A stretch of DNA of 64,000 nt, taken from NCBI GenBank assembly GCA_964019135.1, contig OZ025258.1:11551961-11615960 (forward strand), read 5' to 3'. Positions 28,401 through 62,588 of the stretch are shown piece by piece. The notes under the pieces are model-generated. The model saw nothing but the letters and a program-made list of their open reading frames with translations, made no database searches and was not told the origin of the DNA. Every line of letters begins with the position of its first letter. Within the stretch, counting starts at the first letter, position 1. The translations under genes were made by a program, and so were the position numbers. The DNA comes from Arenicola marina. Its lineage: Eukaryota > Annelida > Polychaeta > Arenicolidae.

Positions 28401-31400
28401 CGAGGGGACGAGGGGACGAGGGGACGAGGGGCCGAGGGGACGAGGGGACGAGAGGACGAGGGGACGAGGGGACGAGGGGACGAGGGGACGAGGGGACGAA
28501 GGGAGGAGGGGACGAAGGGACGAAGGGACGAGGGGACGAGGGGACGAGGGGACGAGGGGACGAGGGGACGAGGGGACGACGGGACGAGGAGACGAGGGGA
28601 TGAGGGGACGCGGGAACGAGTGGATGAGGGACATGGAATGAAGGGACGAGGGGACGAGGGAACGAGGGGACGAGGGGACGAGGCAACGAGGGGACGAGGG
28701 GACGAGGGGACGAGGGGACGAGGGAACGGAAGGAGGACGAAGGGACGAGGGGACGAGGGGACGAGGGTTCGAAGGGACGAGGGGACGAGGGGACGAGGGG
28801 ACGAGGGGCCGAGGGGACGAGGGGACGAGAGGACGAGAGGACGAGGGGACGAGGGGACGAGGGGACGAGGGGACGAAGGGAGGAGGGGACGAAGGGACGA
28901 AGGGACGAGGGGACGAGGGGACGAGGGGACGAGGGGACGAGGGGGCGAGGGGACGAGGGGACTAGGGGACGAGGGGACGAGGGGACGAGGGGACGAGGGG
29001 ACGAGGGGACGAGGGGACGAGGGGACGAGGGAACGGAAGGAGGACGAAGGGACGAGGGGACGAGGGGACGAGGGGACGAGCGAACGAGGGGACGAGGGGA
29101 CGACGGGACGAGGAGACGAGGGGATGAGGGGACGCGGGAACGAGTGGATGAGGGACATGGAATGAAGGGACGAGAGGACGAGGCAACGAGGGGACGAGGG
29201 GACGAGGGGACGAGGGAACGGAAGGAGGACGAAGGGACGAGGGGACGAGGGGACGAGGGTTCGAAGGGACGAGGGGACGAGGGGACGAGGGGACGAGGGG
29301 CCGAGGGGACGAGGGGACGAGAGGACGAGGGGACGAGGGGACGAGGGGACGAGGGGACGAGGGGACGAAGGGAGGAGGGGACGAAGGGACGAAGGAACGA
29401 GGGGACGAGGGGACGAGGGGACGAGGGGACGAGGGGGCGAGGGGACGAGGGGACTAGGGGACGAGGGGACGAGGGGACGAGGGGACGAGGGGACGAGGGG
29501 ACGAAGGGACGAGGGGACGAGGGGACGAGGGGACGAAGGGACGAGGGGACGAGGGGACGAGGGGACGAGGGGACGAGGGGACGAGGGGCCGAGGGGACGA
29601 GGGGACGAGAGGACGAGGGGACGAGGGGACGAGGGGACGACGGGACGACGGGACGAAGGGACGAGGGGACGAGGGGACGAGGGGACGAAGGGACGAGGGG
29701 ACGAGGGGACGAGGGGACGAGGGGACGAGGGGACGAGGGGCCGAGGGGACGAGGAGACGAGGGGATGAGGGGACGCGGGAACGAGTGGATGAGGGACATG
29801 GAATGAAGGGACGAGGGGACGAGGCAACGAGGGGACGAGGGGACGAGGGGGCGAGGGGGCGAGGGGACGAGGGGACTAGGGGACGAGGGCACGAGGGGAC
29901 GAGGGGACGAGGGGACGAAGGGACGAGGGGACGAGGGGACGAGGGGACGAAGGGACGAGGGGACGAGGGGACGAGGGGACGAGGGGACGAGGGGACGAGG
30001 GGACGAGGGGACGAGGGGACGAGGGGACGAGAGGACGAGGGGACGAGGGGACGAGGGGACGACGGGACGACGGGACGAGGAGACGAGGGGATGAGGGGAC
30101 GCGGGGACGAGTGGATGAGGGACATGGAATGAAGGGACGAGGGGACGAGGCAACGAGGGGACGAGGGGACGAGGGGACGAGGGGACGAGGGAACGGAAGG
30201 AGGACGAAGGGACGAGGGGACGAGGGGACGAGGGGACGAGCGAACGAGGGGACGAGGGGACGACGGGACGAGGAGACGAGGGGATGAGGGGACGCGGGAA
30301 CGAGTGGATGAGGGACATGGAATGAAGGGACGAGGGGACGAGGCAACGAGGGGACGAGGGGACGAGGGGACGAGGGGACGAGGGAACGGAAGGAGGACGA
30401 AGGGACGAGGGGACGAGGGGACGAGGGTTCGAAGGGACGAGGGGACGAGGGGACGAGGGGACGAGGGGCCGAGGGGACGAGGGGACGAGAGGACGAGGGG
30501 ACGAGGGGACGAGGGGACGAGGGGACGAGGGGACGAAGGGAGGAGGGGACGAAGGGACGAAGGGACGAGGGGACGAGGGGACGAGGGGACGAGGGGACGA
30601 GGGGACGAGGGGACGAGGGGACGAGGGGACGAGGGGACGAGGGGACGAGGGGACGAGGGGACGAGGGGACGAGGGGACGAGGGGACGAGGGGACGAGGGG
30701 AGGAGGGGAGGAGGGGACGAAGGGACGAGGGGACGAGGGGACGAGGGGACGAAGGGACGAGGGGACGAGGGGACGAGGGGACGAGGGGGCGAGGGGACGA
30801 GGGGGCGAATGGACGAGGGAACGAGGGGACGAAGGGACGAGGGAACGAGGGAATGAGGGGAATAGGGGACGAGGGGACGAGGGAACGAGAGAATGAGGGG
30901 ACGAGGGGACGAGGAGACGAGGGGACGAGGGCACGAGGGAACGAGTGGATGAGGGGACGAGGGGACGAGGGGACAAGAGGACGAGGGGTCGAGGGGACGA
31001 GGGGACGAGGGGACGAGGGGACGAGGGGACGAGGGGACGAGGGGACGAGGGGACAAGAGGACGAGGGGTCGAGGGGACGAGGGGACGAGGGGACGAGGGG
31101 ACGAGGGGACAAGAGGACGAGGGGTCGAGGGGACGAGGGGACAAGAGGACGAGGGGTCGAGGGGACGAGGGGACGAGGGGACGAGGGGACAAGAGGACGA
31201 GGGGTCGAGGGGACGAGGGGACGAGGGGACGAGGGGACGAGGGGACGAGGGGACGAGGGGACGAGGGGACGAGGGGACGAGGGGACGGGGGGACGAGGGG
31301 ACGAGCGGACGAGGGGACGTGAAGGGACGAGAGGACTAGGGAACGAGGGGACGAGGGGACGAGGGGATGAAGGGACGAGGAGACGAGGAGACGAGGGGAC

Positions 31401-32490
31401 GAGGGGACGAGAGTACGAAGGGACGAGGGGACGCGGGGACGAGGGGACGAGGGGACGCGGGGGCAAGGGGACGAGGGGACGAGGGGACGAGGGGACGAGG
31501 GGACGAAAGGACGAGGGGACGAGGGGACGAGGGGACGAGTGGACGAGGGGATGAGTACGAAGGGACGAAGGGACGAAGGGACGAGGGGACGAGGGGACGA
31601 GAGTACAAGGGGACGAGGGGACGATGGGACGATGGGACGAGGGGACGAGGGGACGAGGGGTCGAGGGGACGAGGGGACGAAGGGACGAAGGGACGAGGGG
31701 ACGAGGGGACGAGGGGACGAGGGGACGAGGGGACGAGGGGACGAGGGGACGAAGGGACGAGGGGACGAGGGGACGAGGGCACGAGGGAACGAGTGGATGA
31801 GGGGACGAGGGACGAGGGGACGAGGGGACGAGGGGACGAGGGGACGAGGGGACGAGGGGACGAGGGGACGAGAGGACGAGGGGACGAGGGGACGAGGGGA
31901 CGAGGGGACGAGGGGACGGGGGGACGAGGGGACGAGCGGACGAGGGGACGTGAAGGGACGAGAGGACTAGGGAACGAGGGGACGAGGGGACGAGGTGATG
32001 AAGGGACGAGGAGACGAGGGGACGAGGGGACGAGGGGACGAGAGTACGAAGGGACGAGGGGACGAGGGGACGAGGGGACGAGGGGACGAGGGGATGAGTA
32101 CGAAGGGACGAAGGGACGAAGGGACGAGGGGACGAGGGGACGAGAGTACAAGGGGACAAGGGGACGAGAGTACAAGGGGACGAGGGGACGAGGGGACGAG
32201 GGGACGATGGGACGAGGGGACGAGGGGACGAGGGGTCGAGGGGACGAGGGGACGAGGGGACGAGGGGACGAGGGGACTAGGGGACTAGGGGACGAAGGGA
32301 CGAGGGGACGAGGGGGCGAGGGGACGAGGGGACGAAGGGACCAGGGGACCAGGAGACGAGGGGACGAGGGGACGAGGGGACGAAGGTACGAGGGGACGAG
32401 GGGACGAGGGGATCGACGAAGGGACGAGGGGACGAGGGGACGAAGGGACGAGGCGACGAGGGGACGCGGGGACGAGGGGACGAGAAGTGA
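25400..32490. repeat. 7.1-kb array of an 8-base G-rich unit
   Basis: Tandem GGGACGAG fills about 7,090 bases, close to 880 units, nearly all purine on the plus strand. Variants recur as landmarks: GGGTTCGAAGG, GAACGGAAGGAGGACGAA and GAGTGGATGAGGGACATGG followed by AATGAAGG. The last appears about a dozen times between 25.66 and 30.33 kb at irregular spacing, giving higher-order blocks. From about 30.95 kb other variants take over (GGGACAAGAGGACGAGGGGT; GAGTACGAAGGGACGAAGG). Every unit carries one CpG, and consecutive units form G4-N4 runs. The very long open frames on both strands are artefacts: no unit can spell a stop in any frame. Confidence 0.97.
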
Positions 32491-37675: not shown

Positions 37676-38984
37676 ATCTTGGTAGCATGATGTCTTGGTA
37701 GCATGATGTCTTGGTAGCATGCTGTCTTGGTAGCATGCTGTTTCAGGCAACCTTCCGTCAGGCGTCATGTATCCAATGCCAACCGTTTCCCCGAGGGGCC
37801 AGGTCGATCTCCCGGCAGAGGGCGTTACGCTTGCGCCATAGTCCCTCTGCCCCACGTCAAATTTAACCATCAGAATTATCCTTCATCCGCGAGATTTGAA
37901 ATGAATCTTCTTCTTTTTTTAAATTTCATTTCATCCGCAGCAGGTATCGAGTACAAATATTTCAAGGCACAGGCATGCAAATATACAATCAACTATAAAA
38001 CTGATCATTCAAATATTGGTCTGAGTGGGCCCCACTTTCCATCAAATTTACACAAACTGGATCCCCCCTTAGTGTACCCAATACATCGCTCTGTGAAATA
38101 ATTGGACTTAATTTGAAATGAATCTAATCGCAGATAAATTCACAGTTTGGCATCAAATAGACCACTGTTTAGCATTTACTGTGCCACTGGTACCGTACCG
38201 GACGAATACATTCGATTAATTAGAAGCCATGTTACTTTTGAACTATATTTTCGAGTTTGATCGAGGGCAAAGGCGTGAAGCGTTTTGAACTTGGACCCCG
38301 TGTTATTTTGAAATGTTTTTTCGCCCAACTCTTCCCTTGTGATCATTCGACAACGAAATGTCTATATTTTTCAAATTCTGCATCGAAAATTTAATATTTC
38401 AGCCAAAAAACCCTCTAACATTCATCGTGACCCCAGCACCGTTGAGGTCAACTGTGCGGTGGGCCGTTACGTGGGGCAGAGGTGATGTGAGGAACGAGCG
38501 CCCTCTGCTGGCAGAGTGGGGCCAGGTGTGAGCGAGTCTCCGATAGATAGCGCTGACATGGCTCCGCAGGGCATGGCTCGGCAGGGCATAACGTTGCTGC
38601 GACATGGCTACCAAGTACATGTGCGCGGCCAGCGCCAGCTGTGACACGTAGTGGGCGGAAGGCTGTTGGCGTGACGCCGTCACCACTATAACACGGACCC
38701 CGCCGTGAGCTCCCCTCGCCATGCCCTCGCCCTTTATATGGGCGGGGTGCGCGGCAAACCCGGCCATTCAGTCCCCGCAGTTAGTCGGGGTGATGCTGAC
38801 CGTGGCAACTCCCATGGTGACGGGGGAACATACTGCATCTTATATATATATATATACTGATCATTGTCGAAATCTTAATATATATACATTGGACAAAGCT
38901 GACAATATATATATATATATCTATATATTAATATCTTATTATATGGTTGGATGAATAATGCAATTGAGAAACCAATAATGCGAT

Positions 38985-41900
38985 ATGAAATATACTGAAC
39001 TGAGGGCAGATATGATGGCTGTAAGGCGCTGGTTCTATCTGGTCGTCTTGCTGTCGGTCAACCAGCGGAGCAGCAGGGGGACGGAGTCCGGAGTACCCGA
39101 GCTGTCCGAGCACTCTTATCAACGCCTCGGAGACCTGAATCTCGGGATCCTGCTCGGTATCCATGGCTACAGCGAGGACTCCTTCTGCGACATGGATACC
39201 CTCCGGCGGTCCGAGGTGGAGCTGCTGGAGACGTTAGTCTACGCCATCGGCAAGGTCAACGAGAGAAGCGATCTGTTGCCGAATGTCACTCTGGGGTTCG
39301 TCGCCGCCGACGATTGCCGGAAGGAGCTGACGGCGCTTGCGCGGGCGGTCGCCATGGTGAGCCGCAGCTCCCCGCTACGTCCCGGGAGTCCTAATGACGC
39401 AGTTGCGATAGGTGGTGACGCCGCGGCCGATGGTAGAAATGGCGACATCGTCGGCACCATCGGTCCGATGTTCAGCGGCCAGTCCATCATGGTATCGAGC
39501 TTCATGGGACTGTTCCATGTCCCCGTGCTGAGTCCCACGGCCACGAACGACGAGCTGGAAGACTCGACGCGCTTCGGGTATTTCATGCGGACTTTACTTC
39601 CGGATGCGTATCAGTCCACGGCGCTGGTGGAGCTGCTGACTCACTTCCGGTGGACGTACGTCTCCCTGGTGTACTCCGAGGGCGGCTACTCGGAGGGCAA
39701 CGCGAAGCACGTGGAGAAGCAGGTCAAGCAGAGAGGCATCTGCATCGCGTACTCACACCGCCTCGCCAGCGACGCCGACCGAGCCGAGTACGATGATGTC
39801 GCCAGGGAGCTGTCCCGGAACGCCAAGGCCCGCGTCGTCGTCACCTTCTTGTTCGACAGACAGGCCTTGGCCCTATACGAGGCGCTGGACAGAGGCGACG
39901 CGTCCGCACAATTCATCTGGCTCTCCGGGGATATCATGATGGGGGCCTGGCCCCTTTCCCGCGAGACCAACTGGGGCATCTTCACCGGCTACCACGGCGG
40001 GCAGCTTCCGGGTTTCGACGAATACTTCAACTCCCTCCATTGCGACGACAACCCGAATCCCTGGATCGGGAGTTACTGTCAAGAATTGAGCGGATGTGGA
40101 ACCACAATGGAGAACGACACCAGAGATGTCAATGATTGCACCCGGAATAAAACTATCGGTCAGATTGACGAGATTGTACCCAGCGCTAATCACGCGCGTT
40201 GGGCGGACGCCGTGTTGATCTATGCGCATGCGCTGAATAGTCTCATATCCGGTCACTGTCCGGAAGCGTTGGACGGGGACAAAACAGGACTGATGAGTTG
40301 CGTGTCTGGATCGAGACTCTTACAGTACATGAAAAACGTATCTTTTCAAGGCTTTGCCGGACACATGCAGTTTGATGAAGAGGGACATATAAGATCGGGA
40401 TACACCCTGGATCAGGTCCAACAGCAGGGAAAACGCCGGAAACCAGTGACGTGCGGCGAGTGGGGACGCCAAGTCGATGGAGAATTGGCCATCAATATTT
40501 CCTGTTTAATGTGGCCCGAATCCTGGTTGATTGAGGAAGGTACTGGAGACACATTGCCCTATCCGGAATCCGTATGCAGCAAGCCGTGTTCGCGAAGGGA
40601 GTACACCCACCAATTGGAACTGTCGTGCTGTTGGGAATGCCGCCGTTGCCGGAGCAACGAATACATCACCACCAACAACTCGGGTTGCAAGACTTGCCCT
40701 GTCTACACGTGGCCGGATGACGTCACTGGTCGAGAGTGCCTCGCTTTGACCCCTACTTACTTACGTCATAGCGACGTGGCGGGAGCGATCCTGCTAGGTC
40801 TGGCCTTGCTGGGCGCCGTAGCCGCGCTGGTCGTCATCGGGATCATAGTCCGGAATTTCCGGAGGAAGCTCATCAAAGCCAGCAGCCGTGAGTTAAGCAT
40901 GATGATCCTCGCGGGCGTCCTCCTGGCCTGTCTGGACACCTGTGCCTTCATCATGCCGCCATCTTTGATCACGTGTATCCTGCGCCAGGCCGGGTTTCAC
41001 TTCACCGTGACCGTCATCAACGCTCCCTTGTTGATCAAGACATCTCGCATCTACAGAATATTCGCTGCGGGATTGAAGGGAAATACGAAACCGCGCTTCA
41101 CGTCCAGTAAGACCCAGGTCACCTTTGCTGTCTACGTCATCATCTTGCAGGTAATAAACAGGTTTCTTCTTTTGGACATTTATGTAGCTGGTAAGATGTG
41201 TCACGCGATGAAAACGCTGACAAGGTATGGCGAGGATAAAATGGTGGAGGGTAGTGTAAAGAATCTTTAATGCGAAACTGAATTCAAACAAACCGTTATA
41301 CCACGTAAAGTATACATATAAATAAGTTATGCTATATATATATATAATTATGTCCTTTTATACACGTCAATATGCATGATTGTCACTATGTCGAATCGCT
41401 GCGGTCCATCAGGTCAGGGATAAAAACCAATGAGCCACTCTGCGATTGTGTACTTTCGGTAACACTTTAGACTTTTTATCTCTCAAGGTGACATGCTTAC
41501 ATGCTTACTTGTCAGACAGACAAGCTCTGTAATATACAAAGTTATGCTTTTATTCCAGGTCATTTTCCTCCTAGTTGTTCAGCTGAAGAGCGCATCGGTG
41601 ACGGAGCGGCGCATGCCAATCCCCACAGTACCGGAAGTGGAAATGGCCTGCGCGCGCCCCCTGTGGGGCTTCTTGCTGCCGCTCTGTTACAACATGGCGA
41701 TCATCATGGCCTGCGCCCTCCTGGGGTTCCTCACCCGAAAACTGCCGGAAAACTTCAACGAGTCCTGGTTCATCTTCATCTCCGTGGCGACGACGCTCTT
41801 CATGTGGGCCGTCTTCATCCCGGCCTACTTCACCGCCTTCTACGCCAGTCACCAGACGGCGCTGCTGTCCACCTGTCTATTGCTGAACGCCTTCGTCACT

Positions 41901-45149: not shown

Positions 45150-48100
45150 TTTTTCGTACTCAAAGTATACTTTCGACAGACGATGACAATCACAAAAATA
45201 GCAAAATTACAAAAAGAAATTCAGAGGGACGTCCTAAACATAATTTTAAAAAAAATTCAACAGAAATAGCAACACACATCAAAATAACAGAAACAAAAAT
45301 CGGTCTAGGACTGTACTTAGTTGCAAAAAATCCTTTATGACTCCAAGAACCATTAAGTCTTTTGAGGCGCGATCACAAGGATTTGGGGCGTACTGCTGAT
45401 AAAACACTAAACTTGTCCTTACTGATACAATAGCGGAGGGGAGGGTGATTTTACCTAACAGGTCACAGACGAAGCCATGGAGCGCTTCAGAGTCCGCCAG
45501 ATTAATGCCGATCCAGGATTCCAACAGCCGCCGTGCGGCCTCACCACGCTCTGGGTACGGGTTATTGTATCTGACGACCAAATCAAATCAAGTAATAAAA
45601 TCACACGTAATATAAATTATAAACTAAATCAAATAATATAAATTATAAATTAAATCAAATAATATAATTTATCAATTAAATCAAATAATATAGTCTCACA
45701 TAAAATACATTATAAATTAAATCAAATAATATAATTTATAAATTAAACCAAACAATATAATTTATAAATTAAACCAAATAATATAATTACACATAATATA
45801 AATTATGAATGAAATCAAATGATATAATCACATAATATTAATTATAAATGATATAAATGCTCCTCCTGCTTCCGATACTTTATCTTCCCAATTCATGTCA
45901 ATCAATTAATTTATACATAATGAATGTTTTTCGTTGAGGGGGGGTGGAGGTAGGTGCTAATAAGACATTTCTCCACAGTACCGTCAGAAGCTGCCCACAT
46001 ATTGCAAAGCCCACGCCCCTCCTCTGTGCTGCTGCCATAGGCCATACAGACGGACATTGCTTTAGATCTAGATGCAAGTGGTCCATTCTAATGTATATCC
46101 TAATAAATAGATCCCAATCGTTTAAAGGCAAAAACGGGCACATTCAAAACTTGAACTTGGAAAAAGAATCTCGCTAGCGCTATTATAGATCCTTGGATAA
46201 AACTAGGTTTACAGAATTGCAATATCAAGTATATTGCTCTCTTTACTTCATCGGGTGTAAAGGCACTTGCAACCCGTTAGCCTGAAAACGTCGACGTATG
46301 CCTCCAGGGCGGCGCCACCACGGTGGAACCGGCCTAGAGTGGTTTCCAACAGGAAGGCCGTTACCAAGCCTCCTTGTTGATAGTGGCGCCGCCCTAGAGG
46401 CATAAGTTGACGATAAGACACCATGGCCGAACGAGCGCGAAGTGAAATTGTTCGGTCGTCGGTGAAAATGTTGATTTGTGCAGTCATCTTGCCTGAATGA
46501 GTGCGAATCTCGCCTCCCAACGCTTCCACTTATATAAAGGAAGAAATCTGCTATTTGAAAATGCTGCTGACAAGTGTGTGTTTTAGTCAAGATGGGAAAA
46601 TAGGTTCACTGAACAGCAAACAAGTGCAATGAGTTTAGACGTTATTTGTCGTCCATTACAAACTGTCTAACGACAGTAACTAGCGTGCCCTTCTCAAATA
46701 TCTAACATTATACTAAAGACAATAAGTTATTCGAAAGGTGTGGGTTGTTTAAGATTGAAAGGCGGAAGTATGCAAGACATCGGGTCATTGGGGCATCGGG
46801 ACGCACTTACATGAGCAGATCCATGAAGGCGTCAAATGGCATCATGACATGGTCATATGATCTGGTGACTTCCGGTGCGAATGGCACAGACCCGTCGTCC
46901 TCGATCATCATGACGCCTAAGAGGTGATGAAGGTAGCAAGTACTTAGAGTGTTGGTGCCACGATTTATTTAGCTCACAGTTAACTTTACTTGGGGAAGAT
47001 AAACAAATGAGAATTTGTTTTAATGGGAGTTTGCGGCTTCTTATTGCATGATATCACTATAAACGCGTTCGTCAAAGTAGCAAAAGTCCGGCCGGCTTTT
47101 TTCTGGTGGCATTGCGTCTGAGCGTTATTTAGAAATTCCTCAATGATGTCACGAGATTGACAGGTGAGCTTTGATGCAGTGTGTATGTATCTGTTATCGA
47201 GGATGTATATTGTCGTCATAGTTAAGTGCTTTTCGTTGAGTACAAGCCAATGACCAGAGAGAATCTGAGTCTCAATGTAAAAGACCATGCGTTTTTGTAT
47301 TCCCCTTTGACATCACTTTCCTCCCTCCCAGAATTTAAGTTGGTAGGTACAAAAATAACTGGAAAAATATTCCTTTCTACTATTCAGGGCGTTATGCATG
47401 TAAGTAGGCCTAGGTTGCTTTAAACAGAGGTGGACTCCCAGACTTTTGACATTGCGAATTAGTAAACTCGTCCAATGCTACTTGACTTGACTAGTACAGA
47501 CCCACCTTGAGCCAGTCGTACCCCCTCGGGGTCTAACCCGAGGAAGCCTGTGTCGTACACAGATTCAAGGAGACCGAGACCGCTGAGCTGTAGCCGGTGC
47601 TCATAATCCCCCTCGCTGCCCGGACCCATAGGGGGGCCAGCCGCGGGTAACCACTCCAGTGTGAGCAGGAGAGCCAACGCCCCAGCGTCGTACGCGAAAC
47701 GAGCCATACTGAAGGTCACGTCAAGGTCGTCCAGTATAGTCTTCAGCTGTTCAGTCGAAGACGCTTCTGTGGAGGTAAAAATTATTTTATGGGTATTTAT
47801 GGATTTATTCCAATACTGACATAATTGCAACGCATATACTTTGTTTAACGTCATTTTGCAGTTAGTTTTTAATTATGTCCAAATAGTAAGGAACCCAATT
47901 ATTGTGCTTAGGTTGTTTGTACCAGGCAATCAGATGTATAAAATACTATGGAACTAACGAGTTCAGCACTATATGGAATTATAAAATTTAGCATATTTCT
48001 CGAATTTTAGGACACTATCGAATTGACAACTATAGAATGCAACAGAAGTTTACAAACTATCGAATATTACGAAATTGACAATTGTCACATAATGTGGAAT

Positions 48101-50622: not shown

Positions 50623-51846
50623 CCGCATGTCCGAGATCGCAAGTCTGAGATCGCAAGTCTGAGACTGCAAGTCTGAGACTGCAAGTCTGAGACTGCAAGT
50701 CTGAGACTGCAAGTCTGAGACTGCAAGTCTGAGACTGCAAGTCTGAAACTGCAAGTCTGAGACTGCAAGTCTGAAACTGCAAGTCTGATACTTGTCTGTG
50801 TCTTGTCGTGTCTGTGGGGTCGCAGGATAAATATCCCATGTCCTTCTTCGCAAAGAGTAACAGGTTACCCCCTTGGGACATGGCTCCACTCTCCCTTCTT
50901 CCTCCCATTGACGCCATATAACCAAAAGTGGTTAAAGCGTCTTGAATATACAGTGTAAGCTCTACTCTGCCATATTTGGTACATATCCTAAAATGTTGAT
51001 ACGATACAAATAATATATTCTCCCTGTTACGATAAAGTAATCTCGATAAAGACAAATATAAATGCCTCGAATCCTTCCATATGACGGTGCCAATTCACCT
51101 CTCTAGGGGTCGTGTTGCCACACAAGAGTCGAACCAGATACCGGCTGGTCACACATGTCAATCTTGTGACGTCGTAGAATAATTTTTAAACTGCGTTCAT
51201 ATGCAATGCTCCCGGAACAGATCTGTCCTTAGTTTCACAACTGTGACTAAAGCGCTTACTTACGGAACAGATGGAAGACAGAAAAAAGGTAACTTTTTAT
51301 TTAAAACACATTCTTATTTGGTAATTTTCAGTTGACTTTGAACTGATGTAAAATAGCGTGACATCAAAGCTTCAGCACACGGGTGTAACACATCAATAAA
51401 CTTCGGACAGAGACCTTTTCATTTGTCGTATATTCACCGAGTGTAAAGCCTCCTTATTGCGAGAGAGTTCTAGTGTTTACTGCTGTTTAAACAGCGAAGG
51501 CGCCTCTCTCCGATCTGACTGAACCCTCCTCCGCAAAATGTATTGTAATAGTAACCTTAACGTTGAAATAACGTTGCCATCACTGTCCGTGTGGCTTGTC
51601 TAGAGTAGCAATATATCAAATTAAATGTCCCAACCGTTGTCGCACTGTCGTACCTTTGTTTTGGCATTTCAGTGATGGCTATTCTACACAACAGAACTCA
51701 TACAAGACAGATACTTGCTTCCATTAACATCGAATCTTTATTGATAATCCGGCGGGAATTCAGTTGTTAGACAGCCAAAGAGGTCAACTCTGGATAAGCA
51801 GAAATTCCTTCTCTAAAATACTATAGAACTAAACTATAGAAAGTGA

Positions 51847-51852
51847 TTTATT
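51847..51852 (-). terminator. poly(A) signal after distal last exon of copy D
   Basis: AATAAA on the minus strand, 184 bases beyond the stop at 52036. It is the duplicate of the signal at 54034-54039. Confidence 0.55.
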
Positions 51853-52035
51853 CACCACAAGAACATTATACACGTCACAAATCGTCGCGGCAAACATAGA
51901 GATAAATAAAGATAGTAGTGAATCTCACATATTATCCGATGCAGAACTTATCCGGTATTTCTCCTAATAGCTCAACAAATCATTCAATGTATAGATATCA
52001 ACCTGTGCCATTTAGAGATGAAGTGATGTCCGGCA

Positions 52036-52352
52036 TCACTCTGCTCTGCCTGTCAGGTTCATGAAGCCGCTTTGCTCCAGAGACTCCCGCAAGGGGAAGT
52101 ACACGTCCGCCGTGGCGGCCTGTCGTTGCAGACTCTCCAGGAAGAGGTCGGCGTTCTCCCATCCGGATTCGTAGGCATACCACTCGAGGTCGGCGACCGT
52201 CTCCAGTCGTTCCAGCTCATCCACGGCGTACTGCAGACCGCGGCGGTAGTTGTACGCTGTGCGTACCGCCTCGTCGTACCCGGTAGCCAAGGCGGCGTCG
52301 ATTACGCCAAAGGACTCCAGCACGTCGTACATCTGGCGAAGGTCTCTGGACT
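52036..52352 (-). CDS. duplicate terminal exon of copy D
   Basis: It has an acceptor CCTGCAG, an open frame of 104 residues in the same phase and a stop, as in the proximal exon at 54539-54223. Two residues differ: Arg in PLRESLEQ (Leu in the other) and Val in DEAVRTAYN (Leu in the other). In both cases copy C shows which state is likely ancestral (PLLESLEQ, EAVRTAYN), so each duplicate has one derived change. It could be reached only if the proximal exon and its poly(A) site are skipped. Confidence 0.7.
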
Positions 52353-54033
52353 CTGCAGGTTACACACCAACAAATGTAAAGACACAATCGTGTTATATAA
52401 TCCACATCGCCAGTTATGCTTTGTTTTGCTATGGCTTCAAAATCACATTGACTTGTCAGTGGCAACGTAAATATACCGCGGTTCAGTTCAATTTGGCTAC
52501 ATTTTATGACCAATTACTGTCGTTTAACAAAGATAACGAGTAGATAGATGCCAAACGTATTGTGAGGCTTTGTTATAAAGTAATAGTGGATTTTGTTTAG
52601 TGCACCATGTACATGTAATAGCCGAGAATGCTTCCATTCCCTTCATTCCCCACTTATTGATTATGCCGGGAGACTAGGTTTCATCTTTACCAACTCGCTT
52701 TTGTTTCCGACAGGCAAAAGAAAAGTGAAGTAATTCATCTGCACGGTTTTTGGGTGTTTTTTTTCTGGGCTTTTTTTTGGGGGTGGGGGGAGGGGGGGGG
52801 GTAATGGGGAGGGTATAATAAAAAATACCAGAGAGTATTAAATGGCGGGAAAAGTTAATTGCAAGTCTGAGACTGCAAGTCTGAGACTGCAAGTCTGAGA
52901 CTGCAAGTCTGAGACTGCAAGTCTGAGACTGCAAGTCTGAGACTGCAAGTCTGAGACTGCAAGTCTGAAACTGCAAGTCTGATACTTGTCTGTGTCTTGT
53001 CGTGTCTGTGGGTCGCAGGATAAAGATCCCATGTCCTTCTTCGCAAAGAGTAACAGGTTACCCCCTTGGGACATGGCTCCATTCTTCCTTCTTTTTCCAA
53101 TTGACGCCATATAACCAAAAGTGGTTAAAGCGTCTTGAATATACAGTGTAAGCTCTACTCCGCTATATTTGGTACATATCCTAAAATGTTGATACGATAG
53201 GAATAATATATTCTCCATGTTACGATAAAGTAATCTCGAAAAAGACAAATATAAATGTCTCGAATCCTTCTATATGACGGTGCCAATTCACCGCTCTAGG
53301 GGTCGTGTTGCCACACAAGAGTCGAACCAGACACCGGCTGGTCACACATGTCAATCCGTCGTAGAATAATTTTTAAACTGCGTTCATATGCAATGCTCCC
53401 GGAACAGATCTGTCCTTAGTTTCACAACTTTGACTAAAGCGCTTACTTACGGAACAAATGGAAGACAGCAAAAAAGTAACTTTTTATTTAAAACACATTC
53501 TTATTTGGTAATTTTCAGTTGACTTTGAACTAAAGTAAAATAGCGTGGCATCAAAACTTCAGCACACGGGTGTAACACATCAATAAACTTCGGACAGAGG
53601 CCTTCTCATTTGTCGTATATTCACCGAGTGTAAAGCCTCCTTATTGCGAGAGAGTTCTGGTGTTTACTGCTGTTTTAACAGCGAAGGCGCCTCCCTCCGA
53701 TCTGACTGAACCCTCCTCCGCCAAATATTTTGTAATAGTAACCTTAACGTTGAAATAACGTTGCCATCGCTGTCCGTGTGGCTTGTCTAGAGTAGCAATA
53801 TATCAAATTAAATGTCCCAACCGTTGTCGCACTGTCGTTCCTTTGTTTTGGCATTTCAGTGATGGTCATTCTACACAACAGAACTCATACAAGACAGATA
53901 CTTGCTTCCATTAACATCGAATCTTTATTGATAATCCGGCGGGAATTCAATTGTTAGACAGCCAAAGAGGTCAACTCTGGATAAGCAGAAATTCCTTCTC
54001 TAAAATACTATAGAACTAAACTATAGAAAGTGA

Positions 54034-54039
54034 TTTATT
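54034..54039 (-). terminator. poly(A) signal after proximal last exon of copy D
   Basis: AATAAA on the minus strand, 184 bases beyond the stop at 54223. Confidence 0.6.
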
Positions 54040-54222
54040 CACCACAAGAACATTATACACGTCACGAATCGTCGCGGCAAACATAGAGATAAATAAAGAT
54101 AGTGGTGAATCTCACATGTTATCCGATGCAAAACTTATCCGGTATTTCTCCTAATAGCTCAACAAATCATTCAATGTATAGATATCAACCTGTGCCATTT
54201 AGAGATGAAGTGATGTCCGGCA

Positions 54223-57200
54223 TCACTCTGCTCTGCCTGTCAGGTTCATGAAGCCGCTTTGCTCCAGAGACTCCAGCAAGGGGAAGTACACGTCCGCCGT
54301 GGCGGCCTGTCGTTGCAGACTCTCCAGGAAGAGGTCGGCGTTCTCCCATCCGGATTCGTAGGCATACCACTCGAGGTCGGCGACCGTCTCCAGTCGTTCC
54401 AGCTCATCCACGGCGTACTGCAGACCGCGGCGGTAGTTGTACGCTGTGCGTAGCGCCTCGTCGTACCCGGTAGCCAAGGCGGCGTCGATTACGCCAAAGG
54501 ACTCCAGCACGTCGTACATCTGGCGAAGGTCTCTGGACTCTGCAGGTTACACACCAACAAATGTAAAGACACAATCGTGTTATATAATCCACATCGCCAG
54601 TTATGCTTTGTTTTTTGCTATCGCTTCAAAATCACATTCACTTGTTAGTGGCAACGTAAATATACCGCGGTTCAGATTTAAATTTGGCTACATTTTATGA
54701 CCAATTACTGTCGTTTAACAAATATAACGAGTCGATAAATGCCAAACGTATTGTGAGGCTTTGTTATAAAGTAATAGTGGATTTTGTTTAGTACACCATG
54801 TACATGTAATAGCCGAGAATGCTTCCATTCCCTTCATTCCTCACTTATTGATTATGCCGGGAGACTAGGTTTCATCTTTACCAACTCGCTTTTGTTTCCG
54901 ACAGGCAAAAGAAAAGTGAAGTAATTTATCTGCACGGTTTTTGGGTGTTTTTTTCTGGGCTTTTTTTTTGGGGGGGGGGTAATGGGGAGGGTATGATAAA
55001 AAATACCAGAGAGTATTAAATGGCGGGAAAAGTTAATTAGCCAGATGGGCTGTCAATGCACGTTCGACTTCATCCGTACGTTAAAGTTACAACTGCGAGT
55101 AGGTTGTGAAAAGTGCGGAGGGGATATCTCGGAACGGCCGAAGAAGTCGCAACTGGGTAAGACGCGAAAAACGACACTTGTATTCAAGTGTCATGGCTTA
55201 ACCGACTGCGTTAATGCTGACCCTACATCACACATCATGACGTCACGCCAATATACACATCATGATGTCACGCTCATATGCACATCATGACGTCACACCC
55301 ATATACACATGACGTCACGCCCATATACACATCATGACGTCAAGCCCATATACACATGTACATACCTTGTGTATTTTATGTTCACTCCTTTCTTGTACAC
55401 AAAGCGGTTTGCGTAGTGAATGCATATTATAACAAACATATATGAATATGGTACAAAATCACTACAGTCTTATAATTTACCTAAGATGTTGCACGTGAAA
55501 TTGTGCAACGCCTCCCGGTCGTCCAAATCTAGTCCAGTCCACGATTCCACGATCATTCGCATATAATCACCCTGGCCTGGGTATGGGCTAGAGTATCTGT
55601 AACAAAAGATGGCAGCCTAATGCATCTTATTCTATCTGTAATTCTATCTTTGGGTTCGAGTATCTGTAACAAAAGATGGCAGCCTAATGCATCTTATTCT
55701 ATCTGTAATTCTATCTTTGGGTTCGAGTATCTGTAACAAAAGATGGCAGCCTAATGCATCTTATTCTATCTGTAATTCTATCTTTGGGTTCGAGTATCTG
55801 TAACAAAAGATGGCAGCCTAATGCATCTTATTCTATCTGTAATTCTATCTTTGGGTTCGAGTATCTGTAACAAAAGATGGCAGCCTAATGCATCTTATTC
55901 TATCTGTAATTCTATCTTTGGGTTCGAGTATCTGTAACAAAAGATGGCAGCCTAATGCATCTTATTCTATCTGTAATTCTATCTTTGGGTTCGAGTATCT
56001 GTAACAAAAGATGGCAGCCTAATGCATCTTATTCTATCTGCAATTCTATCTTTGGGTTCGAGTATCTGTAACAAAAGATGGCAGCCTAATGCATCTTATT
56101 CTATCTGTAATTCTATCTTTGGGTTCGAGTATCTGTAACAAAAGATGGCAGCCTAATGCATCTTATTCTATCTGCAATTCTATCTTTGGGTTCGAGTATC
56201 TGTAACAAAAGATGGCAGCCTAATGCATCTTATTCTATCTGTAATTCTATCTTTGGGTTCGAGTATCTGTAACAAAAGATGGCAGCCTAATGCATCTTAT
56301 TCTATCTGTAATTCTATCTTTGGGTTCGAGTATCTGTAACAAAAGATGGCAGCCTAATGCATCTTATTCTATCTGTAATTCTATCTTTGGGTTCGAGTAT
56401 CTGTAACAAAAGATGGCAGCCTAATGCATCTTATTCTATCTGTAATTCTATCTTTGGGTTCGAGTATCTGTAACAAAAGATGGCAGCCTAATGCATCTTA
56501 TTCTATCTGTAATTCTATCTTTGGGTTCGAGTATCTGTAACAAAAGATGGCAGCCTAATGCATCTTATTCTATCTGTAATTCTATCTTTGGGTTCGAGTA
56601 TCTGTAACAAAAGATGACAGCCTAATGCATCTTATTCTATCTGTAATTCTATCTTTGGGTTCGAGTATCTGTAACAAAAGATGGCAGCCTAATGCATCTT
56701 ATTCTATCTGTAATTCTATCTTTGGGTTCGAGTATCTGTAACAAAAGATGGCAGCCTAATGCATCTTATTCTATCTGTAATTCTATCTTTGGGTTCGAGT
56801 ATCTGTAACAAAAGATGGCAGCCTAATGCATCTTATTCTATCTGTAATTCTATCTTTGGGTTCGAGTATCTGTAACAAAAGATGACAGCCTAATGCATCT
56901 TATTCTATCTGTAATTCTATCTTTGGGTTCGAGTATCTGTAACAAAAGATGACAGCCTAATGCATCTTATTCTATCTGTAATTCTATCTTTGGGCTAGAG
57001 TATCTGTAACAAAAGATGGCAGCCTAATGCATCTTATTCTATCTGTAATTCTATCTTTGGGTTAGAGTATCTGTAACAAAAGATGGCAGCCTAATGCATC
57101 TTATTCTATCTGTAATTCTATCTTTGGGTTAGAGTATCTGTAACAAAAGATGGCAGCCTAATGCATCTTATTCTATCTGTAATTCTATCTTTGGGTTCGA

Positions 57201-60200
57201 GTATCTGTAACAAAAGATGACAGCCTAATGCATCTTATTCTATCTGTAATTCTATCTTTGGGTTCGAGTATCTGTAACAAAAGATGACAGCCTAATGCAT
57301 CTTATTCTATCTGTAATTCTAACTTTGGGCTAGAGTATCTGTAACAAAAGATGGCAGCCTAATGCATCTTATTCTATCTGTAATTCTATCTTTGGGTTAG
57401 AGTATCTGTAACAAAAGATGGCAGCCTAATGCATCTTATTCTATCTGTAATTCTATCTTTGGGTTAGAGTATCTGTAACAAAAGATGGCAGCCTAATGCA
57501 TCTTATTCTATCTGTAATTCTATCTTTGGGTTAGAGTATCTGTAACAAAAGATGGCAGCCTAATGCATCTTATTCTATCTGTAATTCTATCTTTGGGTTC
57601 GAGTATCTGTAACAAAAGATGGCAGCCTAATGCATCTTATTCTATCTGTAATTCTATCTTTGGGTTCGAGTATCTGTAACAAAAGATGACAGCCTAATGC
57701 ATCTTATTCTATCTGTAATTCTATCTTTGGGCTAGAGTATCTGTAACAAAAGATGGCAGCCTAATGCATCTTATTCTATCTGTAATTCTATCTTTGGGTT
57801 AGAGTATCTGTAACAAAAGATGGCAGCCTAATGCATCTTATTCTATCTGTAATTCTATCTTTGGGTTAGAGTATCTGTAACAAAAGATGGCAGCCTAATG
57901 CATCTTATTCTATCTGTAATTCTATCTTTGGGTTAGAGTATCTGTAACAAAAGATGGCAGCCTAATGCATCTTATTCTATCTGTAATTCTATCTTTGGGT
58001 TAGAGTATCTGTAACAAAAGATGGCAGCCTAATGCATCTTATTCAATTCTTAGTCGTTCCCCATTTTCCATGTTCTATTTGCTGACATTTTGTATAAAAA
58101 AATGTCTTTCGAATATACTGTGCTCTTGCAATCCGTGGCAACTGATTGCAATGGTGATAGTACGGATTAAACTTATGTCAATTTAATCCATTGGCTTTCC
58201 AGTTCCGAGCTCCGTTTTTGTGTGCAATACCGTTGCACAATTACTCAATTCAAACAGTACAGTTTCGGAGGAGAATCGTTTCGTTACTAAAGCCCAAGTA
58301 CCCTCCAACAATGAAAATTACTGGCGAGCAGAGTTCTCAGATTGAATCACATTACGAATATACTGATATTCACGAAGCTACCGATAACAGTAGATTGGTG
58401 GATATGAATCTATCGATTTATGAATGAGATGACGTCATGGTTTGCTAATGATGGACGAGGACGCAAGGTCTGGGTTGGTTGGAAGATGTAGTCGTTTAGC
58501 TTATTTAAAGTTACTTATCGAGCTCTTTACCGCCAAATCTAAAGAGGGTTGAAATACAAATAAGAATCAGTAGTTTAATCATCCAACATTTCTTTTGTCT
58601 ATATTCCACGTATGCCAGACGGCCAAATGAAGTCTCTTAGCCTTGCCCGTGATATCAATTAACCACAGGTTTTCAACTTAGTGGTACACGTCATCAGTTT
58701 GTGCGCTACGCGATGCTTTGTCATAAGTAGCAGTACCAAGTTCCGCGGTACTGCAATATCACAAATCACAAATAGTGATATATATATGTCGCCTGGGCTC
58801 AGATTTAGAAGGAAAAGCTCGACAAGCAGCTTTAACTGGTTGCCATGTCCAGTACTGAAGAATAGATTCGAATCCTGGTAAGGATAAATTCACGAGAACG
58901 TATTGATTCGAGCGAATACATGAGGCGGTACCAAATTGAGTTAATCAATCCCTAGTTCACTCATTAACTGTTGATTCGTACATAATAATCAACTTGTAGC
59001 AAAAGAATGAAAGTGGTTTTAATGGTGAAGGATGCATTCGTGAACTTCATTTAGGATGGCGTCACTGCTGTGGGTTACATGGCCAACTTACACAAGCAGA
59101 TCCAAGGCGGCATCGAGCGGCGCCATGACGTGGTCACATGACTGGATGACTTCCGGTGGGGGTGGCTGAGGTATAGCTTCGTCCGTGATCAGGCCTACAC
59201 CATGACAACAAAACGCCCTGTTTACTAAAAGCATCATACTGAAAATTGTACCTCGTACATACGATGTCCAAGATGTTAAAGACGACAATGCACATACTTT
59301 ATGAACAGTTTGAGTTTAAATATATGGCGGAAACAAGATTCAGTGCAACTGCTTCTATGCTTGAGTTATGCTAACGCTGTTGACAAGAGCGAATTGGTGA
59401 TGTGAAACCGCAAAACGTATGCAGTTCATGCTGAAAGAATTACAGTGATCAAATTTAGCAGAGCCACCGCCCTTACCCTATATGATACCTAAGATCAAAT
59501 TAATTTCAAGTAAAATGAGTAGGCTAACCAGCAATCTTTTGAATGCCTTCAGGATCAAGTCCAAGGAAGCCCGTGCGATAGATGGTTTCGACAAGCTGTA
59601 AGACAGTAAGTTGCAGCTCGTGCTGAAACCCGATCGCGGTCACACCAGGCAGCAAATCCCTGGCAATCAGCAGTTCGCCAGCCAACAGGTCGTACGTGAA
59701 ACGCGCCATATGGAAGGTCACGTCAAGGTCTTCCAGTATACGCTTCAGCTCTTGCAGCGACGTCGCTTCTGGGGGAGCGTAAACAGAAGAAAATGTCGAA
59801 AAATTGAGTCGTAAATTGCACAATTCTCTCAACGTTATTATTAGCATAGCGCCACGAGACTACATTCTGTCCATATTTTTTAAATCTGCGCCTCGTTGAC
59901 TGATTGGTTGATTGGTTAATTGGTTGGCTTGAGCAGCAAAGCCAAATCAAGGAGCTCAACATCGACGCCTTTCAAACAACGCGATGGGGTGTGGGTTTTT
60001 TTCGACACGAGTATAGATAGACGTTCGCATAGCAAGTCGCAAACCCCCAAACCCTGGCATGATGGCTGGCTTGGCAGGGTAGCTTTCAGACCAGTCAAAT
60101 AGAGACTAGTCAATGAAATAGGAGGCGTATAAATATGTATATATTTATAAGAGAGTATTTGCGCTATGGAATATGTGTCATTAATATTAAATCTAGTTTA

Positions 60201-62588
60201 TTTACATGACTCTTACACATCATGAATTATATTATGTAACACAAAAAATGAACGAAAATAATATTATATAAAAATATAATTTCATGATCATTGCATGGCC
60301 CAGGGAGCTGATTCATGATCATCTTCTATAGATAGAATGACGTCACTGCTATGGTCTAATGAGAATATCAGTGACGTCATATCAGGTCTGTCTACCCTAG
60401 ATACTGAAAATTGGAGATGATCCGGGTTGGCATTTAGGTGCCGAATTCCGTAGAAACTGCATCGCGTCAGTAGAGGGCGCCAGTACTCTATGCATCACAC
60501 GGTAGGTCTACGGATTCGGGCAACGAAATGAGAAAAATTATCATGATCCATTGCCTCAAGATAGGTGCAAGCCTATCTTTCTTCGGAAAGATATGGTTCT
60601 TCTCCACCTCGATCCTTCCCATTGTGGAGATGCGAGTCAAGAGTTTAAAGCGTCCTAATGGAACCAGCCAATCTATTTATCAATTCAAAATACATACACA
60701 CTTCGTGCATCTTAAGTGTGTAGGTCTTCACCATGCACTTCGCTCGCTTACTTACCGATTACGCGGCAGACAACGCGTTTCATCTCGACGGGATCGGTCA
60801 GGTCTACCCCGGTGAGGTGCTCAAGTCGCAGGGGGCCAACCGGACGTACATCCTCTGGCACGGCATCCAGAAGATCCTGGAGGAAGCTGGTTCCTCGACT
60901 CGCGACGTCGCAGGGCACGCGAAAGCGCGCCAGGTATTGATAGTATTCATAGAGACGACATTCTGAAATCGAAAAAACAAACACAACACAATGTTTGACA
61001 CTGAATTTTGAATCTCACCAGAGTAAGTGTCTGTATGTTTGTGAATGATAAATATTCCATGTCTTTCTTCGCAGACTGGGCGGATCCAGGAATTTGAAAA
61101 GGGAGAGTCAATTGAAACTTGTGACCGGGGGGGGGGGGGCTCTGTACAGAAATCGGGGGGTCCACCAATTTTACGACCGGGAGGGGGAGGCAGAGAGCGT
61201 TCTTCCTCAAAAAGGAAGGGTCCGGACCCTTTGAACTCTCCCGCACCCCCGTACTACAAAAACTACAAATCGCACAAAAAGGGAAAACATTGAAAACATA
61301 TAATACATGACAGCTTTCACACTAATTCCAAGCTAGCGTGCCATGCCTCTACTTAGAAACCTTACTTAGCGCTATGAATGCCTTCCAGTCCTAGCACGAA
61401 GTCACTTTGACCAGCTTATGTATCATAAATTGCCAAACTTGTCACTTCATGCGTAAGTTCCGATAGGATATGACCACACGAAGCGTACGCATTAATTTGG
61501 CAGGCCGAATACACAGTCACTGACATTGTGACCATCGTAAATAGGCCGCATCTATTGCGTCTACTCGGAAAGGCACATAGAACACCCTGTGCGTCAGAAG
61601 CTGTGGAATAAACTCCTGGAAATGCCATGCGTACCCTTAGTATGGTTTATGAATACCGGCCTTGATACATGTGTATGAAATGCTACCAGGCAAGTTACCT
61701 ACGATGGGAATGACTAAGAACATGTCCATCAGCCAGGATATCAATATCAGTGACATTCTACATTATTTATGTACGGCGTAAATTCGTTTAACTTAAGTTT
61801 TAGTTTTTTTCCTTTTCTGATTCTTTTTCCCCTTTTTTGTACCACGAGTACGACGTAATAAATAAATCAATCAATCAATCAATCAAAAATGGTCTAAAAA
61901 TCATTCCCGCCCGGTGACTGTTTGATGGCTTTGCATCTGTCCGTCTGTCCATCTCACCGGCGGATAGAGAGGAAGGGCATTCAAACCCTCTACCTGGGGC
62001 CGTCCCGATAGCTCAGTGGGTTAGAGCGCTCGCCTTGAGGGCTCTGGCCACCTGAGAGCCTAACGGAACGTGGATTAGTGGTTCGCGCCCCGCCATGTCT
62101 GTGTGGTCGCAGGATAAAGATATCATGTCTTCCTTTGCAAATAGTAGGGGGTTACCCCCGGGGACATTGCTCCACTCACCCTTCCTTCTCCCATTGACGC
62201 GATATGAGCAAAAGTGGTTAAAACGTCCTGAATATACAACCAGCCAACCATCGTTGATACATATTGCATACATATGACAAACTAGGTCTTTCTATCCTGT
62301 GACATTTCGCAAAGGTAACGTCTTTGACTCATTCTCATTTGACTTCATTCTTAGTTAAAGTAGCGCCGAACCACGCCAGTTAAGTGCGTCATTTTCATAT
62401 AATTACATTTAAAAACTAAAATGAATGACATACTTTACACTTTGGTCACATGCCTTAATACATCATTCGTTCTACGCCTTTTGACAAATTGATTCACCGT
62501 GTTACGAAGAAACCAAATAGCGTTACCTGAGTTTGGAATAAACTGAAGAAATACAGGGAGTAAAGCGAGTATCCCAGCAAGCTTCATC
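54223..62588 (-). CDS. two-module secreted protein, copy D
   Basis: Exons on the minus strand: 62588-62528, 60962-60756, 59768-59529, 59194-59092, 55596-55481 and 54539-54223. They join to 348 codons, GT-AG, phases 1,1,1,2,1. A second last exon lies at 52352-52036. Exon 1 is a leader (MKLAGILALLPVFLQFIP). Module 1 (21-169) has ECRLYEYYQYL, LTGVDLTDPVEMKRVVCRVIG and ETIYRTGFLGLDPEGIQKIAG. Module 2 (170-347) has QSCDHVMAPLDAALDLL, TGLDLDDREALHNFTCNILG and ESLEQSGFMNLTG. The match of TGVDLTDPVE...C..IG with TGLDLDDREA...C.ILG shows the internal repeat most clearly. Intron 4 holds a 67-base satellite, intron 5 a CRE-like array. A TA-rich tract about 70 bases upstream (62651-62671) may supply a TATA box. 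Function unknown. Confidence 0.83.
55226..55352. repeat. ~25-base array with CRE palindromes in intron 5 of copy D
   Basis: About five units of CACATCATGACGTCACGCC plus CATATA. Perfect TGACGTCA octamers, the consensus for CREB/ATF factors, fall at 55238, 55288, 55310 and 55335. A one-mismatch version lies at 55263. It sits about 130 bases into intron 5, downstream of exon 5. Confidence 0.85.
55591..58044. repeat. 67-base satellite carrying a splice acceptor
   Basis: Thirty-six full units and a partial one, with starts exactly 36 x 67 = 2,412 bases apart (55591 to 58003), so no net length change. Each plus-strand unit starts GAGTATCTGTAACAAAAGAT and includes GGCAGCCTAATGCATCTTAT and CTATCTTTGGGTTC. 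On the transcribed minus strand each holds CATCTTTTGTTACAG followed by ATACTC, identical to the true acceptor and first bases of exon 5 (55596). Some units carry GGGCTAGAG exactly as in the exon, others GGGTTAGAG or GGGTTCGAG. These variants, with GATGGCAG/GATGACAG, alternate in blocks in the right half. Confidence 0.97.
58045..59091 (-). other. remaining intron 4 of copy D
   Basis: The part of intron 4 between exon 4 (59092) and the satellite. I see no exon or recognised repeat in it. Confidence 0.5.
60560..60672 (+). mobile_element. degenerate SINE remnant
   Basis: TTTCTTCGGAAAGATATGG, CTTCCCATTG and TTTAAAGCGTCCTAATGGAA then CCAGCCAA align loosely with the 3' half of the local SINE. It lies in intron 2 of copy D. 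A further short fragment (CCATGTCTTTCTTCGCAGAC) lies at about 61040-61072 in intron 1. Confidence 0.45.
61992..62252 (+). mobile_element. full-length tRNA-SINE
   Basis: Head CCGATAGCTCAGTGGGTTAG (A box), TAGTGGTTCGCGCCCCGCC (B box), body TGTCTGTGTGGTCGCAGGAT, and 3' end AAAACGTCCTGAATATACAA then CCAGCCAACC. It is the best-preserved copy of the family in the window. It lies in intron 1 of copy D, antisense to the gene. Confidence 0.85.

Follow-up and report, generated by a model that had tools for sequence, protein, structure and literature searches.

A 67-bp minisatellite with 36 decoy splice acceptors, probably born at an exon border of an annelid gene copy

Introduction

When the end of an intron and the start of the next exon are repeated in tandem, unit after unit, before the exon itself is reached, where did the repeats come from, and which acceptor is the gene likely to use? 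The question is raised by copy D, a member of a gene family in the annelid Arenicola marina (assembly GCA_964019135.1, contig OZ025258.1), which lies on the minus strand of the 64,000-nt stretch of DNA analysed here (the window; positions are counted from its first base).

Arrays at such borders have been described in lancelets as 'mirages': tandem duplications, resembling minisatellites, that take in a border between exon and intron of Adh3, globins (BflGb6 and BflGb9), TnC or PGBD5 (PMC3087553, PMC3902484). In the first report, mirage units are said to show concerted evolution that spares the cluster boundary, RT-PCR suggests normal splicing, and border-spanning arrays are put forward as a possible source of new introns (PMC3087553). 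Another study states that new introns can also form from internal repeats at exon-intron borders in human segmental duplications (PMC2812944).

Results

The array of copy D has a period of 67, 36.7 copies and 98% matches in TRF, and makes up the final 2.45 kb of the 3,495-nt intron between exons c and d, running into exon d without interruption (Table 1). The initial annotation had described a 67-base satellite with an acceptor in every unit, 36 of them decoys that precede the true site on the sense strand, and the motif count agrees: TTTTGTTACAG/ATACTC (the slash marks the splice junction) occurs 37 times on the minus (sense) strand, as 36 upstream decoys and the real acceptor, after which the first exon base is 55596. 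The 37 copies of GTTACAG/ATACTC are spaced exactly 67 nt apart. Of the span first given, 55591..58044, the end stands; the start has to be moved by 7 bases, since the overlap with the exon extends over 13 nt to 55584.

Table 1. Positions of the array, its parts and the exons discussed in the text (window coordinates)
Feature	Position	Strand	Basis
Exon a of copy D	60756..60962	-	spliced reading frame
Exon b of copy D	59529..59768	-	spliced reading frame
Exon c of copy D, donor GT/GTAAGT partnering the real acceptor	59092..59194	-	spliced reading frame
Coding exon d of copy D, 116 nt; the exonic part of the unit corresponds to its opening 13 nt (55596-55584)	55481..55596	-	spliced frame, paralogue exon starts
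Terminal exon e of copy D	54223..54539	-	spliced reading frame
67-bp tandem array ('mirage' minisatellite), 36 decoy units and the real border	55584..58044	-	TRF, unit tables
36-nt intron 3' end (GAATAAGATGC...TTTTGTTACAG) preceding the real acceptor	55597..55632	-	sequence comparison
18-nt filler (AAGATAGAATTACAGATA) of the exon-proximal unit, with second TTACAG/ATA	55633..55650	-	sequence
Upstream edge: intron end (36 nt) of the first decoy, followed by unique intron that holds GACTAAGAATT	58009..58062	-	sequence
Exon-exact stub ATACTCTAGCCCA in a decoy unit; two more start at 57338 and 57740	56991..57003	-	unit tables
Exon d of paralogue C, acceptor GTCGTCAG/ATACAATAACCC, without the 67-bp array	45455..45570	-	homology, spliced frame

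Each unit can be read as 13 nt of exon (ATACTCTAGCCCA on the sense strand, TGGGCTAGAGTAT on the plus strand), 18 nt of filler and a 36-nt intron end running from GAATAAG to TTACAG. It had been claimed that the unit joins the end of an intron to the start of 'exon 5'; the joining is correct, and the exon is the fourth of the five that we placed; since exon a starts with a split codon, 'exon 5' is plausible. Every unit contains the acceptor, contrary to one of the outcomes that the initial annotation had named as a refutation. Before the decoys, the intron end is identical to that of the real site in 30 of 36 cases and has one base changed in the other 6; AG is kept in all 36, and the exonic bases match the real exon at 11 or more of 13 positions. 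Only five of the 67 positions vary. The sole GT of the common unit falls within GTTACA, so the unit is without a good donor. The filler brings a second TTACAG, whose 13-nt context has 34 exact matches.

The origin of the filler is less clear-cut. It shares TTACAGATA with the border, which at 9 nt is the longest context match, as long a match arising in 57 of 2000 shuffles, and it is not found whole in the flanking context; these matches only weakly suggest that the border context served as its template. A second parsing, made by eye against the upstream edge AAGAATTGAATAAG, reads the unit as 56 duplicated nt that differ from this edge by two small insertions, and the two parsings stand equally. 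The unique intron with GACTAAGAATT is possibly the ancestral branch region, and GACTAAG, about 42 nt before the first decoy, is plausibly the old branch site. On that reading the real acceptor would rely on signals within the units.

The exon borders of copy D were set by homology between copies C and D together with GT/AG dinucleotides, which are present at all placed borders. The five exons form a single open frame when a G is added before the first to complete its split codon. The donor of exon b reads GTTAGC in copy D versus GTGGGT in copy C. Codon positions were compared between C and D over exon d and parts of exon e: in exon d the third position differs at 21/39 sites, versus 15/39 and 12/38 for the other two, and the third-position excess is absent from the compared parts of exon e, so that protein constraint between C and D appears only weakly visible. 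For copies C and D no Pfam family passed the cut-off, the homologue search for D gave none at E <= 0.001 among the 8000 best-sharing candidates, and the structure search returned only three weak matches (E 0.12 to 0.54), so that no known protein family was matched. Through a 2.2-kb tandem duplication (96%) at window positions 50666-55038, with 14-bp arrays near its joints, the terminal exon of copy D could be either 54539-54223 or 52352-52036, which differ at 2 of 317 bases.

To locate the native border we used paralogues of the same assembly in place of orthologues. Exon d starts with A/TAC TCT AGC CCA in copy D, A/TAC AAT AAC CCG in C, G/TTT TCC AGC CCA in E, G/TTT GAG AGC CCA in A and G/TGG GCC AGC CCT in B. 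Codon and phase of the exon start thus agree in all five alignable copies, as do Ser/Asn and then Pro as the third and fourth full codons; copy F was kept outside this comparison, its exon start being different, and copy E, which spans L022 and L023, was counted as one copy from its exon order. This shared codon, phase and Ser/Asn-Pro pair indicates that the unit took up coding sequence and not the reverse. Copies A, B and E lack a tandem array at the acceptor of exon d, and the unique part of the intron of D has no clear similarity to the intron of C (best E 0.17). Copies E and F lie upstream of the window, which brings the nearby family to at least six members. In copy C an unrelated AT-rich tandem array (45580-45859) has its edge 10 nt from the exon d acceptor, and its unit excludes the exon border.

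The array appears to be confined to this locus. In the 867,369,267-base assembly the junction motif TTTTGTTACAGATACTC has 37 matches, all of them within the array, whereas the same pattern read backwards, used as a control, has 0. A DNA query of 201 nt (three units) gave 18 listed matches, 18 of them in the array, in a search that skips very common words. A satellite found elsewhere in the genome was the other outcome that had been named as refuting an origin at the exon border; both searches of this assembly looked for such copies, as a dispersed or mobile-element satellite would have, and found none. The birth of the array at the exon border of copy D, as first proposed, is now well supported by the codon and phase of the paralogues and by the single locus.

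The exonic stubs of the decoys record some of the history of the array. Three of the 36 match the exon exactly, which bears out the earlier remark that exon-matching units recur inside the array; nine are one base off and 24 two bases off. From the upstream edge towards the exon the stub types read TTTTCGGTTTCGGTTC, followed by 20 G. This order suggests duplication in blocks of five to six units, with the 20 units nearest the exon expanding last. The changes shared by 33 of the 36 stubs are absent from the exon, their direction being not certain. Exon d itself has not been homogenised to the array, as expected if selection holds the coding sequence; in a lancelet globin mirage, cluster boundaries are reported to be likewise left out of homogenisation (PMC3087553). 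Which stub type is the oldest is not certain, as the one-base variant is nearer to the exon of paralogue C (10/13, versus 9/13 for the exon-exact stub) but the AGC of D is also carried by A, B and E.

Use of a decoy would be unproductive on reading-frame prediction. In 36 of 36 decoys the reading frame closes 11 codons beyond the junction codon, after the peptide YS[N/S]PK[I/L]ELQIE (its variants occur in 33, 2 and 1 decoys), unlike the frame of the real acceptor, which reads on; splicing to the second TTACAG of the unit would give an immediate stop. We rejected the idea that RNA structure hides the decoys, as the two 134-nt stretches of array and border that were folded did no better than shuffled sequences (z 0.96 and 1.05). 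No sign of selection against decoys is seen among the 36 units, though only five of their 67 positions vary.

Discussion

Taken together, these observations describe a structure whose kind is already known, the mirage. The unit spans an exon/intron border that is supported by the paralogues (13 nt of exon and 36 nt of intron end), the units are kept alike (98% matches) with the gene side of the cluster excluded (33/36 stubs), and 37 of 37 motif matches lie inside the array, as in a local duplication at the border. In lancelets too the units span the intron/exon border, that of BflGb6 consisting of the intron 3' end and the 5' part of the exon (PMC3087553). The Adh3 units are given there as 10-72 bp, a range that includes the 67 bp of copy D (PMC3087553, PMC3902484). 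The known mirages differ in their host, a lancelet rather than an annelid, and in unit number: for BflGb6 one haplotype has 6 units and another 3, each of 150-160 bp, versus 36 extra units here (PMC3087553). The 36 units exceed the published mirage counts that we found, the Adh3 count being outside this comparison.

Several human arrays offer partial parallels. The 37-bp repeats in intron 7 of the coagulation factor VII gene (F7) vary in number, start at the splice border and contain copies of the splice site, of which one is normally used (PMC6627357). They carry the 5' splice site and are therefore the donor-side counterpart of the acceptor array of copy D; the site used in F7 is met first, whereas the real site of copy D is met last (PMC6627357). 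Genes within human segmental duplications contain internal tandem repeats that reflect minisatellite growth in recent paralogues, as here, but with units that average 30 bp and are repeated four times, about half of them in coding sequence (PMC2812944). The polyubiquitin gene UBC also has tandem splice sites within a repeat, its dual-specific array differing in that the repeats are coding and the sites can serve as donor, acceptor or neither, whereas those of copy D are intronic and acceptor-like only (PMC10809524).

Our literature search for border-spanning repeats, covering mainly open-access papers, returned lancelet and human cases, and a narrow search of the same literature with annelid terms returned no paper. 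Within the open-access literature searched, an annelid host for a mirage is new, as far as that search extends, and it suggests that exon-border minisatellites are not peculiar to lancelets. Mitochondrial contig C762 of the assembly (15,942 bases, of which 6,000 were examined), if it comes from the animal, points to an arenicolid-like annelid: its frames are read as ND4L, ND4, ND1 and ND3, with a tRNA-Val, in an annelid gene order, and over its length ND4 is 72% identical to that of Abarenicola claparedi oceanica (Arenicolidae). Among the best 120 of 7998 hits the other 119 are 50-65% identical, and those with recognised names are annelids. A lancelet host, considered in view of the mirage reports and of a Branchiostoma receptor match (31%), was rejected on this ND4 result.

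The array is most likely a tolerated by-product of tandem duplication. We assign a probability of about 0.7 to the reading that a mirage-type minisatellite arose by duplication of the border in copy D and is tolerated, with the real acceptor still chosen. The intron end would have been duplicated in tandem together with the 13 bases that open exon d, a short filler or small indels arising where the copies joined, and slippage and unequal exchange would then have extended the array to 36 extra units. Each unit would supply its own pyrimidine tract and a possible branch site, so that the array could lengthen without destroying the acceptor. The real acceptor would still be preferred as the only one followed by a complete exon, whose own donor lies 116 nt downstream, the units offering no GT but that of GTTACA, and decoy use would be mostly silent noise, cleared by nonsense-mediated decay because every decoy leads to the stop 11 codons on.

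The same near-identity of real and decoy sites could also serve regulation. If decoys were used at a regulated or copy-number-dependent rate, every such use leading to a stop and to mRNA decay, the length of the array would set the output of copy D. Such dosage control by poison acceptors is possible, and is in keeping with the close match of the decoys over the intron end and the exonic bases, the stop common to all 36, their intact AG and the two folds that show no hiding of the decoys. We nevertheless consider it unlikely, as with five variable positions of 67 the intact AG says little on selection, lancelet mirages are reported without splicing disturbance (PMC3087553) and the F7 repeats normally use the most upstream donor only (PMC6627357). 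More doubtful still is the double claim that minisatellites of this family seed preferentially at acceptors and that the array of copy D is a length-tunable set of poison acceptors setting expression. It is quite improbable, too, that the expansion is harmful, with decoys capturing splicing, copy D failing and paralogue C or others doing the work. That the decoys are transcribed before the real acceptor would favour this reading, as would the divergent exon b donor of D and an exon e in which C and D show little excess of third-position differences; the open frame over five placed exons with GT/AG borders and some third-position excess in exon d argue against it.

The remaining two explanations concern the array itself. 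Long near-identical arrays are hard to assemble, and 19 of the 37 units, as cut, are identical, so the copy number might be wrong through collapse or expansion. This we judge very improbable: 2.46 kb would be short relative to long reads, and the variant units sit in an orderly block pattern. An origin of the satellite elsewhere, or from a mobile element that landed here and whose end replaced the exon start, would fit a filler that is not found whole in the flanks and shares at most 9 nt with them; it is extremely improbable in view of the whole-assembly searches, which gave no second copy, and of the 13 exonic nt, whose codon and phase are shared by four paralogues.

Copy D is a natural test of acceptor choice, in which 36 sites differ from the real one mainly in downstream sequence. 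If the last of the 37 acceptors is the one used, exon definition outweighs the order of transcription; if it is not, array length could act on expression.

Other arrays lie close to acceptors in this family. Upstream of the acceptor of exon b, copies A (minus strand) and B (plus strand) carry arrays of the 9-bp TCACTCACA type (window positions 4693-6026 and 18760-19039), with TRF edges 100 nt (A) and 19 nt (B) from this acceptor and degenerate copies nearer in A; in copy E a short array of 9-bp units lies at L022:816-915, 145 nt ahead of exon b. Counting C and D, all four copies in the window (A, B, C and D) have an acceptor with an array a short way upstream. Within 20, 50, 100 and 150 nt of acceptors we observed 3, 3, 4 and 4 arrays, where 0.17 to 0.71 were expected (P 0.0007, 0.003, 0.001 and 0.004). 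The test, on 14 arrays merged from TRF output and 19 acceptors, two of them approximate, was post hoc, counted D itself and included the related arrays of A and B; adjacency beyond chance is only a hint. A possible second mirage is the 122-bp tandem array at L024:2242-2687, whose unit carries the acceptor-like TTTGAATACAG/GTG and whose downstream exon resembles, by eye, a nuclear-receptor zinc finger. Elsewhere in the window, the plus strand carries at 38979-41270 an exon of a class C seven-helix receptor, with the families ANF receptor, NCD3G and part of 7tm_3, a best match of 39% and a best named match of about 31% (Branchiostoma), and a 7-kb array at 25402-32484 consists of 881 copies of the 8-bp unit AGGGGACG.
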